From positions 337,409-397,658 of the forward strand of contig NZ_ML703253.1 in NCBI RefSeq assembly GCF_008520305.1: a DNA stretch of 60,250 bases. The letters run 5' to 3'. The notes beneath the pieces are model-generated. The model was not told the DNA's origin and did no database searches. It saw only the letters and a program-made list of their open reading frames with translations. Origin of the DNA: Mesorhizobium sp. SARCC-RB16n. GTDB taxonomy: Bacteria; Pseudomonadota; Alphaproteobacteria; Rhizobiales; Rhizobiaceae. The number at the start of each line of letters is the position of its first letter. Position 1 is the stretch's first letter. Position numbers and translations under genes: made by a program. This document shows, in pieces, positions 3,769-55,720 of the stretch.

Positions 3769-3825
3769 TTCTTCCCGTCACTATACGGGGAGAAATGTCC
3801 GGCAGGACAATGAGGGGCGGCGCAA
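3769..3825. repeat. Half copy of the palindromic intergenic repeat
   Basis: Contains the conserved blocks cccgtcactatacggggaga and gtccggcaggacaatgaggg, shared with 39181-39225 and 52922-52970. Only one arm is present. The rest of 3553-3835 shows no gene. Confidence 0.75.
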
Positions 3826-30568: not shown

Positions 30569-30970
30569 TTAGGCGCGCTTGCCGCCCCTTTCATTTGCGA
30601 GGTGATAGGGTCGCACGAGGATTTCGGCGGGAATGTTCCATTCCTTGTTCAGTTTGAAGATCATGTCGAGGGTAAGGGCGCGCTTTCTGTTCAGGACCTC
30701 GGTTGCCCGAGGCGACGATCCGATCACTTCGGCCAAAGCCTTTCGCGACAGGTTGAACAATTTCATGTGCGAATGAATGGCTTCAACGGGATCGGGTGCT
30801 TCAATCGGATAGTGCTTATCCTCATAAGCCTCGATCAGGGTTGCGAGAACGTCAAAGCGATCGCCGTCGGGAGAGCCTATCTCCGGCTCATTCTCGAAGT
30901 ATTTGGTGATTTCGGCGATCGCCCAATCGTAATCGGCTTCGGTCTTAATGGGTCGAATGTCTTCCATCAT
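30569..30970 (-). CDS. higA: HigA-type antitoxin
   Basis: 133 residues. An acidic N-terminal region (TEADYDWAIAEITKYFENEP) precedes a Xre-type HTH (FNLSRKALAEVIGSSPRATE, VLNRKRALTLDMIFKLNKEW). This is the longer HigA form, with the DNA-binding domain at the C-terminal side. It neutralises the HigB nuclease and represses the operon. The start overlaps the toxin's stop by 4 bp (ATGA), so the toxin is first and translation is coupled, as is typical for higBA. Confidence 0.92.
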   Translation of the reverse strand: MMEDIRPIKTEADYDWAIAEITKYFENEPEIGSPDGDRFDVLATLIEAYEDKHYPIEAPDPVEAIHSHMKLFNLSRKALAEVIGSSPRATEVLNRKRALTLDMIFKLNKEWNIPAEILVRPYHLANERGGKRA

Positions 30971-31263
30971 ACCTTCTCCGGATCAATCTTGTCATATTCT
31001 TTATGTGTCCCGACGAATTTGATCAGGACCCGGTGAAATTTGTAGGCGACGTGGACGATCAGGCGGTACTTGTTGCCGCCAATATCGAAAATGACGCGGT
31101 TGTCGCCCACGAAATCGACGGTCGTTCCGAATGCATCCTTGATGTCGGCCGGAGTCTTCCAATCGGCACTGCCGACAGCAACATACCAAGCCGTCAGAGG
31201 CGCTTCCGCCTGATGGTGCTTGGCCCAAAAGTCCTTCAGCGCTTTCTTGGCGATGATTTGCAT
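30967..31263 (-). CDS. higB: HigB-type mRNA interferase toxin
   Basis: 98 residues of the RelE/HigB fold: KKALKDFWAKHHQAEAPLTA, then DFVGDNRVIFDIGGNKYRLI, and a C-terminal FVGTHKEYDKIDPEKV with the usual His-x-x-Tyr-Asp. HigB cleaves ribosome-bound mRNA. The ATG at 31263 is directly preceded by AAGGTG; a GTG at 31266 would add one residue. Two palindromic operators and a promoter lie upstream. It is next to the Ada gene, which is transcribed in the opposite direction. Confidence 0.92.
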   Translation of the reverse strand: MQIIAKKALKDFWAKHHQAEAPLTAWYVAVGSADWKTPADIKDAFGTTVDFVGDNRVIFDIGGNKYRLIVHVAYKFHRVLIKFVGTHKEYDKIDPEKV

Positions 31264-31268
31264 CACCT

Positions 31269-31318
31269 TATATAGCGAATTCCCAAACCGGGAACAAGCG
31301 AAATTCCCAAATTGGGAA
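31269..31318 (-). promoter_or_regulatory. higBA promoter with two HigA operators
   Basis: On the minus strand TTGTTC (31292-31297) and TATATA (31269-31274) are spaced by 17 bp, with the start codon only about 6 nt after TATATA, so the transcript may be nearly leaderless. Two dyads, TTCCCAAACCGGGAA (31280-31294) and TTCCCAAATTGGGAA (31304-31318), lie 24 bp apart. The first lies in the spacer and overlaps the TTGTTC box; the second is upstream of the promoter. Together they fit HigA autorepression. Confidence 0.7.
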
Positions 31319-31422
31319 GGATTGCATTAGATGCAGCATCTTGACCTCAACCACGCTTGCACCTCCTGACAGTTGGCAGGAAACGGGTGGCGGGATCGGC
31401 TTTTGGCGGCTTCAATGCGCTT

Positions 31423-32544
31423 ATGTTCATCACCCTGGCCAAACGTCTGCAACCCGCGCCGCTGCCGGTGGCCGACGACCCGCGCTGGGCGCGCATCGTG
31501 GCGCGTGACAAGTCGGCCGACGGGAAATTCTGGTATTCGGTGGCGACGACCGGCGTCTATTGCCGGCCCTCCTGCCCGTCGCGGCGCGCCAACCCCGCCA
31601 ATGTCCAGTTGCACGACACTTTACAACAGGCGAAGGCGACAGGCTTTCGCCCATGCCGGCGCTGCAATCCGGACGGCCCTTCGCTCGAGGCCGCCAACGC
31701 CGCGATGGTCGCCAATGCCTGCCGCAGGATCGAGGAAAGCGAGGAGGAACCCTCGCTCGCCGAACTGGCCGGTGCCGCCGGCCGCAGCCCCGGCTATTTC
31801 CACCGCGTCTTCAAGGCGACCACCGGGCTGACGCCGAAGGATTATGCAGCGGCCCGGCGTGCCGCCCGGGTCCGCCAGGGCCTGGAAGACGGCGTCAGCG
31901 TGACATCGGCGATCTACGATGCGGGCTTCAATTCGAGCGGGCGCTTCTACGAAAAATCGACCGGCATGCTCGGCATGACGCCGACGCGCTATCGCGCCGG
32001 CGGCGCCAATGAGGAGATCCGCTTCGCGGTCGGCGAAACTTCGCTCGGCACCATCCTGGTCGCCTCGAGCCGGAAGGGCGTCGCCTCGATCCTGCTCGGC
32101 CAGGATCCCGACGCGCTGGTGCGCGACCTGCAGGACCGTTTCCCCAAGGCACGGCTGGTCGGCGGCGACAGCGACTACGAGGCGCTGGTCGCGCAGGTCG
32201 TCGGCTTCGTCGAGGCGCCGGCGCTCGGTCTCGACCTGCCGCTCGACGTGCGCGGCACTGCGTTCCAGCAGCGCGTCTGGCAGACCTTGCGGGACATCCC
32301 GGCCGGCCGCACCGTCTCCTACGCCGAGATCGCCCAGCGTATTGGCGCGCCGAAGGCGACCCGCGCCATCGCCGCCGCCTGCGCCGCCAACGCCCTTGCG
32401 GTGGCCATTCCATGCCACCGCGTGATCAGGAAGGACGGCGCCCTGTCCGGCTATGCCTGGGGCGCGGAGCGCAAACGCGCGCTGCTCGACCGCGAGGCCG
32501 GCGCGCCGGTGAAGTCACCCGACAACGGGCTCTCTCAGGCCTGA
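31423..32544 (+). CDS. ada: Ada: bifunctional regulator / O6-methylguanine-DNA methyltransferase
   Basis: 373 residues with the full Ada plan: zinc/methyl-phosphotriester domain (C47, C51, C78, C81 in VYCRPSC and FRPCRRC), AraC-type HTH (PSLAELAGAAGRSPGYFHRV) and a C-terminal methyltransferase with IPCHRVIRKDG (active Cys C331). It repairs methylphosphotriesters at the N-terminal zinc site and O6-methylguanine in the C-terminal domain, then activates adaptive genes. The ATG at 31423 was chosen because the longer frame adds no family sequence. Ogt-like and 2OG-oxygenase genes follow at 33070 and 33618, probable targets. Confidence 0.95.
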   Translation: MFITLAKRLQPAPLPVADDPRWARIVARDKSADGKFWYSVATTGVYCRPSCPSRRANPANVQLHDTLQQAKATGFRPCRRCNPDGPSLEAANAAMVANACRRIEESEEEPSLAELAGAAGRSPGYFHRVFKATTGLTPKDYAAARRAARVRQGLEDGVSVTSAIYDAGFNSSGRFYEKSTGMLGMTPTRYRAGGANEEIRFAVGETSLGTILVASSRKGVASILLGQDPDALVRDLQDRFPKARLVGGDSDYEALVAQVVGFVEAPALGLDLPLDVRGTAFQQRVWQTLRDIPAGRTVSYAEIAQRIGAPKATRAIAAACAANALAVAIPCHRVIRKDGALSGYAWGAERKRALLDREAGAPVKSPDNGLSQA

Positions 32545-32557
32545 CGAGGACCCGGCA

Positions 32558-32785
32558 ATGCGTGCGATGGCCAGGTCCTCCATCACCGGTGCGAACAGCC
32601 AGATCGCCAACGGCGCCGCCGTCAACCGAGAGGACGCGAAGACGCTGGTGATGGCTGCCATTGGCACGCTTGTCGAGGATGGCAAGGCCGAGTGGAGCCG
32701 AACCGCGACCGGCGAGATCGAACTGCGGCTGTTATCAGGCGAGGTGTTCTTGCTCGGCGAGGTCTGTGTCACGCGTGTCGCCTAA
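32558..32785 (+). CDS. Small hypothetical protein downstream of ada
   Basis: 75 residues starting at ATG 32558, 7 nt after GAGGA and 13 bp after the ada stop, so likely cotranscribed. The central stretch ANGAAVNREDAKTLVMAAIG resembles no family I recognise; the C-terminal half (GEIELRLLSGEVFLLGEVCV) looks beta-stranded. No DNA-repair motif is visible. The role is unknown, but the position invites testing as part of the alkylation response. Confidence 0.6.
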   Translation: MRAMARSSITGANSQIANGAAVNREDAKTLVMAAIGTLVEDGKAEWSRTATGEIELRLLSGEVFLLGEVCVTRVA

Positions 32786-32795
32786 GTACACCTTA

Positions 32796-32960
32796 GCACT
32801 CTACGGCGCCCCCCTCTGTCCTGCCGGACATCTCCCCCACTTGTGGGGAGATTAGCTGTCATCACGGCCTTCGCCAATCTCCAACGTTGCCGGACGAGGG
32901 CCGGCGCCGAAAATCTCCCTCCTTGTGGGGGAGATGTCCGGCAGGACAGAGGGGGGCGCC
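32796..32960. repeat. Palindromic repeat with perfect 36-bp arms
   Basis: The arms 32805-32840 and 32925-32960 are exact reverse complements over 36 bp and read ggcgcccccctctgtcctgc… inward; an 84-bp core lies between them. A second copy is at 55541-55720. It lies between the ada-linked small gene and ogt and fills most of the 285-bp gap. Confidence 0.95.
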
Positions 32961-33069
32961 ACAGAACTCGGCCATCCACAAGTTGGCAATTTGAATTTGA
33001 AAGCAAGCACCGGAGTGAGGAACAGCCGGCACGTGGCTAGAGTTCAGGCACACAGAAGGAGTGAAGGCA

Positions 33070-33621
33070 ATGAACCTCATGCAGACCCATATGCCGGCGA
33101 CAGCCGCCGGCGTCGCCCTCGACACCATCGCCTATGCCATCGGCCGGTCCGCGCTTGGGAACATCCTCGTGGCGCGCAGCCCCATCGGCGTCTGCGCCAT
33201 CCTGATCGGCTCCGACGCCAAGGCGCTTGAACAAGACTTCGCCAACCGCTTCCCCGACAGGGTGCTACGCGAAGACGAGACCGGCTTGCGCGACGATCTC
33301 GCGGCGATAGCGCGCTTCATTGAAATGCCGGGCGCCGGTCTCGACCTGCCGCTCGACATGCGCCACGGCACGCCCTTCCAGCAGCGGGTGTGGGAGGTGC
33401 TGCGGACTATCCCGTGCGGCGCCACCATCACCTACACGGCCCTTGCCCGGCGCCTCGGCATGCCGGACGGCGCCCGCGCCGTGGCGACGGCCTGTGCCGC
33501 CAACGCCATCGCGCTCGGCATTCCCTGCCACCGCGTGCTGCGCGCTGACGGCTCGCTGTCCGGCTATCGCTGGGGGATCGAACGCAAGCGCGCCTTGCTG
33601 GACGGGGAGGCCGCGATATGA
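33070..33621 (+). CDS. Methylated-DNA-[protein]-cysteine S-methyltransferase (Ogt-like)
   Basis: 183 residues: an N-terminal domain resembling the ribonuclease-like part of MGMT and a C-terminal domain with FQQRVWEVLRTIPCGATITY, the Asn-hinge region ACAANAIALG and the active site IPCHRV (C153). It removes methyl groups from O6-alkylguanine by suicide transfer. It is closely similar in layout to the C-terminal half of the neighbouring Ada, so it may be a duplicate. Its stop overlaps the oxygenase start by 4 bp (ATGA), a translational couple. The ATG at 33070 has GGAG 8 nt upstream. Confidence 0.93.
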   Translation: MNLMQTHMPATAAGVALDTIAYAIGRSALGNILVARSPIGVCAILIGSDAKALEQDFANRFPDRVLREDETGLRDDLAAIARFIEMPGAGLDLPLDMRHGTPFQQRVWEVLRTIPCGATITYTALARRLGMPDGARAVATACAANAIALGIPCHRVLRADGSLSGYRWGIERKRALLDGEAAI

Positions 33622-34361
33622 ACGCCAACGCCAGGGTTGCCCCATCATTGATCGAAGCTGCCGAGACACGCGTCGACGCCTACGACTGGTCGGCGCTCAC
33701 CGCCGAGCTCGACGGCTTCGGCTGCGCGGTGATGGAAAAGCTGCTGTCGCCGCAGGAGTGCCGGCAGATCGCCGGCCTCTATTCTGAGGAGCAGCATTTC
33801 CGCAGCCACATCCACATGGCCAGGCATGGCTTCGGCAAGGGCGAATACCGCTATTTCCGCTATCCCTTGCCCGATCTCATCGGCGGCCTGCGCAGCGCGC
33901 TCTATCCCAGGCTGGCCGAGGTCGCCAACCGGTGGAACGAGCGCATGGGGATTGCCATGCGCTACCCCAGCACGCATGCGGAGTTTCTAGACCAGTGCCA
34001 TGCCGCCGGCCAGGTCAGGCCGACACCGCTATTGCTGCAATATGTGCCTGGCGACTTCAACTGCCTGCACCAGGACCTCTATGGCGACCTGGCCTTTCCC
34101 CTGCAGGTAGCGACCCTGCTTTCCGAGCCCGGCCAGGATTTCACCGGCGGCGAATTCGCGCTGACCGAACAGCGGCCGCGCATGCAGAGCCGGGTCGAGG
34201 TGGTGCCCTTGCGCCAGGGCGATGCGGTGGCCTTCGCCGTCCACAACCGGCCGGTACAGGGAACGAAGGGCAATTACCGCGTCAATCTGCGCCACGGCGT
34301 CAGCCGCCTGCGCTCAGGCATGCGCCACACCGTCGGCATTATTTTTCACGATGCGAAGTGA
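33618..34361 (+). CDS. 2OG-Fe(II) oxygenase, candidate dealkylase
   Basis: 247 residues of the double-stranded beta-helix oxygenase superfamily. Metal and co-substrate residues are visible: HQD (H151, D153) in FNCLHQDLYGDLA, the distal His in NLRHGV (H226) and Arg in GMRHTVGII (R236), the usual 2-oxoglutarate anchor ten residues on. A block PLQVATLLSEPGQDFTGGEF precedes these. It is translationally coupled to an O6-alkylguanine transferase and lies downstream of Ada, so nucleic-acid dealkylation is plausible although it is not a canonical AlkB by eye. The 3' end overlaps that of the opposite ECF gene by 23 bp. Confidence 0.88.
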   Translation: MNANARVAPSLIEAAETRVDAYDWSALTAELDGFGCAVMEKLLSPQECRQIAGLYSEEQHFRSHIHMARHGFGKGEYRYFRYPLPDLIGGLRSALYPRLAEVANRWNERMGIAMRYPSTHAEFLDQCHAAGQVRPTPLLLQYVPGDFNCLHQDLYGDLAFPLQVATLLSEPGQDFTGGEFALTEQRPRMQSRVEVVPLRQGDAVAFAVHNRPVQGTKGNYRVNLRHGVSRLRSGMRHTVGIIFHDAK

Positions 34362-52828: not shown

Positions 52829-52973
52829 GTCGGCGCTGCCCCTCACTGTCCTGCCGGACATCTCTCCCCGTGAACGGGGAGAGAGAAGCTGGCCGCAACG
52901 CCGGCGACAAGCCCCCTCTCCCCGTCACTATACGGGGAGAGGATGCCGGCAGGCAGGTGAGGGGCGGCGCCGA
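52829..52973. repeat. Palindromic repeat between SBP and ATPase genes
   Basis: Inverted outer arms (cggcgctgcccctcac and gtgaggggcggcgccg) with inner ctctccccgt hairpins. It matches 39042-39230. In this position it could limit transcription from the highly expressed SBP gene into the ATPase, which often needs fewer copies. Confidence 0.9.
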
Positions 52974-55540: not shown

Positions 55541-55720
55541 CGCTCTGCGGCGCCCCCCTCTGTCCTGCCGGACATCTCCCCCACGAGGGGGGAGATTGGC
55601 AGCCTTGGCGCCTCTCCCTCTTCTGCAACGGTGGAGATTGGCGAAAGCCGCGAAGACAGCCAATCTCCCCACCTGTGGGGGAGATGGCCGGCAGGCCAGA
55701 GGGGGGCGTCGTAGAGCGCC
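55541..55720. repeat. Palindromic repeat between the two permease genes
   Basis: The left arm 55549-55584 is identical over 36 bp to the arm at 32805-32840. The right arm 55675-55710 differs from that consensus at three positions. It fills most of the 244-bp gap between the permease genes. Confidence 0.93.

Follow-up and report, generated by a model that had tools for sequence, protein, structure and literature searches.

An alkylation-response block of Mesorhizobium with a PF09859 oxygenase and a predicted two-sensor promoter relay

The stretch of DNA analyzed here (the window) comprises 60,250 nt of Mesorhizobium sp. SARCC-RB16n (NZ_ML703253.1, 337,409-397,658), and all coordinates are window positions. 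On its plus strand it carries ada, an open reading frame (ORF) of 75 residues that we call u75, an ogt-like gene and a gene for a PF09859 Fe(II)/2-oxoglutarate (2OG) oxygenase (Table 1). This order, and the ATGA by which the last two genes overlap at 33618-33621, were present as described in the original prediction, whose reading of the genes as an alkylation-damage block was also supported. The prediction would have been weakened by a gene order unconserved elsewhere; the order recurs in related Mesorhizobium loci, and the ATGA overlap was found in 28 of the 29 related loci having ogt (another related locus, L044, lacks ogt). The 80 named loci are the best 80 of 564, a set biased toward the window, and the closest of them are from Mesorhizobium, with oxygenase identity up to 93%. 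The toolkit of the block is largely standard, and we read it as a probable adaptive response to DNA methylation encoded on the chromosome.

Table 1. Positions of the repair block, its promoter elements and its neighbors
Feature	Position	Strand	Evidence or remark
ada, E. coli-type sensor and methyltransferase, 373 aa	31423..32544	+	profile matches, residue mapping
Cada2-type box GCAGGAAACGGGTGGCG, ada promoter	31376..31392	+	
u75, 75-residue protein, companion of the block	32558..32785	+	no Pfam match
Inverted repeat, 54-nt arms 32800-32853 and 32912-32965	32800..32965	.	interspersed repeat
EcAda-type box AATTTGAAAGCAAGCACCGG, ogt promoter	32994..33013	+	
-10-like conserved stretch GCTAGAGTTC	33036..33045	+	judged by eye
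ogt-like O6-methylguanine methyltransferase	33070..33621	+	PF01035 2.4e-33
PF09859 Fe(II)/2OG oxygenase, ATGA overlap with ogt	33618..34361	+	PF09859 8.5e-86
HigA-like antitoxin gene, neighbor outside the repair block	30569..30970	-	HTH_3 0.0087, TIGR02607 0.0016
HigB-like toxin gene, neighbor	30967..31263	-	PF09907 2.2e-29, 102 bits vs 27; start 31263
Two palindromic HigBA operators, TTCCCAAACCGGGAA and TTCCCAAATTGGGAA	31280..31318	.	31280-31294 and 31304-31318

The most likely start of ada is ATG 31423, because the longer ORF from TTG 31357 would include the conserved promoter box; that of ogt is most likely ATG 33070, behind AGAAGGAG at 33054-33061, in favor of which GTG 33061 was set aside. 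The four repair genes probably form two adjoining transcription units, because 284 bp containing the 54-nt inverted repeat and a separate conserved promoter lie between u75 and ogt, and a single ada-u75-ogt-oxygenase operon was set aside on these grounds. The repeat itself is interspersed: palindromic copies around GTCCTGCCGGACATCTCCC occur in the window at 32800-32965, 52848-52866, 55562-55697 and 3790-3808 (6 matches at three or fewer mismatches against 0.01 expected), one inverted pair being the one between u75 and ogt.

Ada combined PF02805 (Ada_Zn), an AraC-type helix-turn-helix (HTH) domain (HTH_18) and PF01035 in one chain and scored 425 bits against the NCBIfam Ada equivalog, for which the cut-off is 345. 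Alignment to E. coli Ada (1wpk) showed that the equivalents of Cys38, Cys42, Arg45, Cys69, Arg71 and Cys72 were kept, so that the domains and key residues of an E. coli Ada-like (EcAda-like) regulator were all found in this protein; Arg45 and Arg71 of E. coli Ada act at the A box (PMC4437013). The Ogt-like protein kept PCHRV and, across 169 aa, shared 54% identity with Ada's C-terminal half.

The two promoters differed in their boxes. The Caulobacter regulator Cada2 binds two elements, the B-box GCAA and the X-box CGG (PMC10957082), and the corresponding arrangement with a short AT-rich spacer was found before ada as GCAG-GAAA-CGG, its spacer being one base longer than in the published box and GCAG standing in place of GCAA. 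In 29 of 30 ada promoters the 15-letter island, G or T followed by CARGWWWCGGGTGG, lay 46-48 bp before the ATG; in 22 of the 30 promoters it starts with G and fits the strict 11-letter form, and the ada box of genome G001 has one mismatch to the 15-letter form. The EcAda combination of A and B boxes, AAT-N6-GCAA, occurred in none of the 30 ada promoters, that of the window among them. Before ogt, AAT-N6-GCAA-N4-CGG was present in 27 of 29 promoters, including that of the window, with the two exceptions (L032 and L034) one base off each, and the island AATTTGAAAGCAAGCAYCGGAGTGAG was conserved while its flanks were variable. Without mismatch, this EcAda-type box occurred once per genome in all five block-bearing Mesorhizobium genomes and in none of the four block-less ones; three weaker matches at three mismatches were also present. 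A second conserved stretch, judged by eye, began about 33-35 bp after the box start in all four promoter classes. The ada promoter was also typed, using extrapolated gene starts, at 22 other loci that encode Ada; it had an EcAda-type box in seven (L001, L083, L102, L155, L158, L163 and L166) and a Cada2-type box in five (L061, L062, L073 and L077 of Rhizobium and L109 of Bosea), and ten had neither strict box.

Cada2 is encoded in all five block-bearing genomes, and RLHD, its published mark (PMC10957082), was present in 12 of 12 HTH-methyltransferase genes fetched. The 15-letter pattern GCARGWWWCGGGTGG, derived from the ada and cada2 promoters, gave 20 mismatch-free sites in nine Mesorhizobium genomes: eight before cada2, four before ada, two before solo oxygenase genes (G016 and G227), three before DUF1203 genes and two before short-chain dehydrogenase (SDR) genes, together with a ninth cada2-type site in G031, where one contig ends at the cada2 promoter and a similar promoter copy lies on another. 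We relied on these mismatch-free sites because the pattern at one or no mismatch also matched the control (3-8 matches, against 8-16 per genome); the 11-letter GCARGAAWCGG was rejected as a specific pattern, with 16-30 matches per genome against 15-28 in the control. All 19 solo-oxygenase boxes of the named loci that match the 11-letter form extend to CGGGTGG. The DUF1203 genes behind mismatch-free boxes (L189, L190 and L191, in G329, G031 and G253) make this gene a candidate new member of the alkylation response. For the SDR genes (L188 and L193, in G329 and G031) the box, GCAGGTATCGGGTGG, adjoins the start.

Another candidate new part of the response is u75, for which the Pfam search gave no match. 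It was found in five of five block-bearing and none of four block-less Mesorhizobium genomes, and in one of seven genomes of family f27 (G342, within an alkylation cluster); among these 16 genomes searched it occurs solely with alkylation-repair clusters.

The oxygenase matched PF09859 (Oxygenase-NA) over its full length, at 286.3 bits against a cut-off of 26.2 and over profile positions 1-172 of 172. It had been predicted to show HxD...H...R without being a clear AlkB, and this was borne out: HQD 151-153, H209 and R221 are present, with H151, D153, H209 and R221 invariant across 50 aligned oxygenases, and a search with the AlkB profile PF13532 gave no match at E values up to 0.1. AlkB proteins carry RxxxxxR behind the distal histidine. 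Behind H209 this motif was absent, R221 being followed by an invariant G227 at +6; R230 and R236 have the RxxxxxR spacing but lie farther from H209. The Pfam title of PF09859 refers to oxidative action on damaged DNA; our literature search found no characterized member under that name, and no sequence relatives of the oxygenase were found in the PDB.

The genomic surroundings of PF09859 were surveyed in a fairer sample of 398 evenly drawn Pseudomonadota genomes, with up to eight candidates per genome scored in the first pass; two PF09859 rows (G117 and G170) and one AlkB row (G226) under the cut-off were excluded from the counts. PF09859 was above the cut-off in 42 genomes (44 genes, 20 of them from two families). 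Of these genes, 27 had a methyltransferase (14), AlkB (15) or Ada_Zn (12) domain on their own strand no more than 3 kb away, against 0.22 expected from the methyltransferase and AlkB densities, and the linkage was seen in eight of 15 families. In G226, for example, ogt-oxygenase-alkB is followed by ada; G186 has oxygenase-alkB-ada; in G069 a short Ada-like gene precedes oxygenase-alkB; and in family f27 ten of 11 genes are arranged as oxygenase-alkB. In ten f27 loci (L139-L143, L146-L149 and L151) the AlkB domain follows the PF09859 domain by 79-88 bp on the same strand, which makes joint production of the two oxygenases probable there. In L167 (G252) two PF09859 genes flank an AlkB gene, all on one strand. 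PF13532 was also carried by 39 of the 42 genomes and stood beside 15 of the 44 genes; since an AlkB gene frequently comes next, it is improbable that the oxygenase simply takes the place of AlkB. A strict box preceded six of 43 PF09859 genes against four of 2001 background windows, and the loose form GCAR-N3/4-CGG was mildly enriched (20/43 against 290/2001). Among the 80 named loci a methyltransferase gene stood directly upstream of the oxygenase in 43 and not in 37. When this context was mapped on a tree of 72 oxygenases, it changed 13 times, against a shuffled mean of 22, with at least four of the changes forced by well-supported branches; the context is thus clustered in the tree, yet has been repeatedly gained or lost.

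The Mesorhizobium form of the ada promoter suggests an order of Cada2, then Ada, then ogt-oxygenase, and we propose a relay of this kind with the oxygenase as a dealkylase and the HigBA pair next to ada as a bystander, a proposal that we rate as equally likely to be right or wrong. The genes, their residues and linkage, the conserved boxes with their positions and the cada2 genes of relatives were observed directly, whereas we infer the pairing of boxes with proteins, the induction, the presence of Cada2 in SARCC-RB16n itself and the substrate of the oxygenase. Once methylated, a Cada2-type sensor whose gene lies elsewhere in the genome would switch on ada-u75 by way of the box at 31376-31392. 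Ada would in turn be methylated, on Cys47 (the equivalent of E. coli Cys38), and would switch on ogt-oxygenase by way of the AAT-N6-GCAA box at 32994-33013. Ogt would clear O6-methylguanine by suicide transfer, and the oxygenase produced together with Ogt would most likely act by Fe(II)/2OG oxidation, stripping alkyl groups from lesions outside the range of AlkB. More specifically, Cada2, activated at its C-terminal methyl-acceptor cysteine, may induce ada, and Ada, activated at its zinc-site cysteine, may induce ogt and the oxygenase, the ada box having arisen by exchange; we hold this version tentatively, at a little less than an even chance, and propose the exchange because other lineages have ada promoters of the EcAda type.

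Several observations weigh against this reading. The two-sensor relay is a prediction from promoter sequences; because the 15-letter pattern was built from ada and cada2 promoters, its sites there are found by construction, which does not apply to its other sites. The spacing between GCAR and CGG here is four letters, against a published spacer of 3 bp (PMC10957082), the boxes that precede the oxygenase genes in G250 and G253 (GCAAGAAACGG) do not reach the 15-letter form even at one mismatch, and the strict box is absent from 18 of the 37 named loci lacking an upstream methyltransferase. The ogt box also contains CGG, and therefore Cada2 might bind it. For the oxygenase, 17 of the 44 PF09859 genes showed no linkage to repair genes, and its structure model (predicted local distance difference test, pLDDT, 69) aligned best to prolyl hydroxylases; AlkB-type folds were not among the 50 matches listed for the model, which excludes no fold.

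The CGG in the ogt box also bears on whether there is a relay at all, as Cada2 alone might drive both promoters, as in Caulobacter, with Ada a repair protein or a parallel actor. Both boxes contain GCAR-N4-CGG, and both promoters show the conserved stretch, seen by eye, about 33-35 bp after the box; furthermore, EcAda did not replace Cada2 in Caulobacter, nor Cada2 EcAda (PMC10957082), and therefore the two are separable. The ogt box, however, carries AAT spaced as in EcAda boxes and has neither the AT-rich spacer nor the GGGTGG end; it is similar to the EcAda-type boxes found before ada in seven of the 22 other loci, and we consider control by Cada2 alone unlikely. The structure model, in turn, would suit an enzyme that hydroxylates proteins or small molecules and is induced only as a companion of the repair genes, its target under alkylation stress being, for example, the translation machinery. 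The repeated linkage of PF09859 to AlkB, Ada and methyltransferase genes speaks against this, and the model is of middling confidence; we regard such a hydroxylase as doubtful, and protein hydroxylation as an activity as similarly improbable. Dealkylation, with an alkylated lesion as the substrate, we put at roughly an even chance.

The HigBA genes lie divergent from ada, whose ATG stands 143 and 119 bp after the starts of their two operators, within the 150 bp originally given. The HigB-like protein scored above its PF09907 cut-off; the HigA-like protein fell below those for TIGR02607 (18.2 bits against 47.7) and HTH_3 and, judged by position and operators, works like an antitoxin. Against the PADLOC profiles, the HigB-like protein matched the PD-Lambda-2 A protein (2.5e-35), and the HigA-like protein matched PD-Lambda-2_B (2.3e-37) with residues 2-122 on positions 1-121 of 402. 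The divergent layout and the nearness of the operators to ada would fit a single stress unit in which these operators also control ada. They lie 17-55 bp from the higB start, however, as expected for self-control, and among 29 related loci besides the window HigBA was intact in six, represented by HigA remnants alone in nine and not detected in 14, with the operators present solely in the six intact loci. The ada promoter box is present with or without HigBA. The suggested link to a growth-arrest module was thus not supported, HigBA was rejected as part of the repair unit, and we consider joint control very improbable; because it is intact in six of 29 loci and the operators are confined to those six, HigBA looks like a bystander, an old neighbor in decay.

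Coupling of suicide and oxidative demethylation had been put forward as new, but it is not, because a Caulobacter pair has been published: the Caulobacter gene most induced by methyl methanesulfonate (MMS), ccna_00745, is predicted to encode a 2OG-Fe dioxygenase and shares an operon with ccna_00746, which encodes an Ada-like methyltransferase (PMC10957082). It is likely that ccna_00745 is a PF09859 member, because C. vibrioides was the sole one of 14 control genomes with PF09859 and because Caulobacter alkB is a separate gene, CC0009 (PMC1839093, which lists CC0709 as ada with an internal deletion). The Mesorhizobium block resembles the Caulobacter Cada2 regulon in this gene pairing and in its Cada2-type regulator and box, and induction specific to methylation, known there, would have its counterpart here; it differs in that the oxygenase is accompanied by a complete EcAda-type gene as well as an Ogt-like gene, and in the division of these genes between two promoter units. 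With the E. coli Ada regulon (ada-alkB, alkA and aidB; PMC4437013) it shares an EcAda-type sensor, AAT and GCAA boxes and an oxygenase produced together with repair genes, whereas its ada promoters lack AAT-N6-GCAA and its oxygenase is PF09859 and not AlkB. The oxygenase shares with AlkB the Fe(II)/2OG superfamily, the HxD...H...R residues and linkage to Ada genes; it belongs to a different Pfam family, one that mostly co-occurs with PF13532.

What may be new is the two-step promoter wiring rather than the repair coupling; no description of wiring from Cada2 through Ada to ogt-oxygenase was found in our literature searches. According to PMC10957082, which mentions neither Mesorhizobium nor any word beginning Rhizobi, the two regulators coexist in about 7% of genomes and show autoregulation as well as cross-regulation; the Mesorhizobium ada promoters depart from its claim that every EcAda organism surveyed had E. 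coli-type promoter features. The broad linkage evidence supports placing PF09859 in alkylation repair beside AlkB, and the block offers a test of how two bacterial methylated-DNA sensors combine in one cell. If the proposed relay is true, the cell would commit a second repair layer only on sensing two different kinds of methyl lesion.

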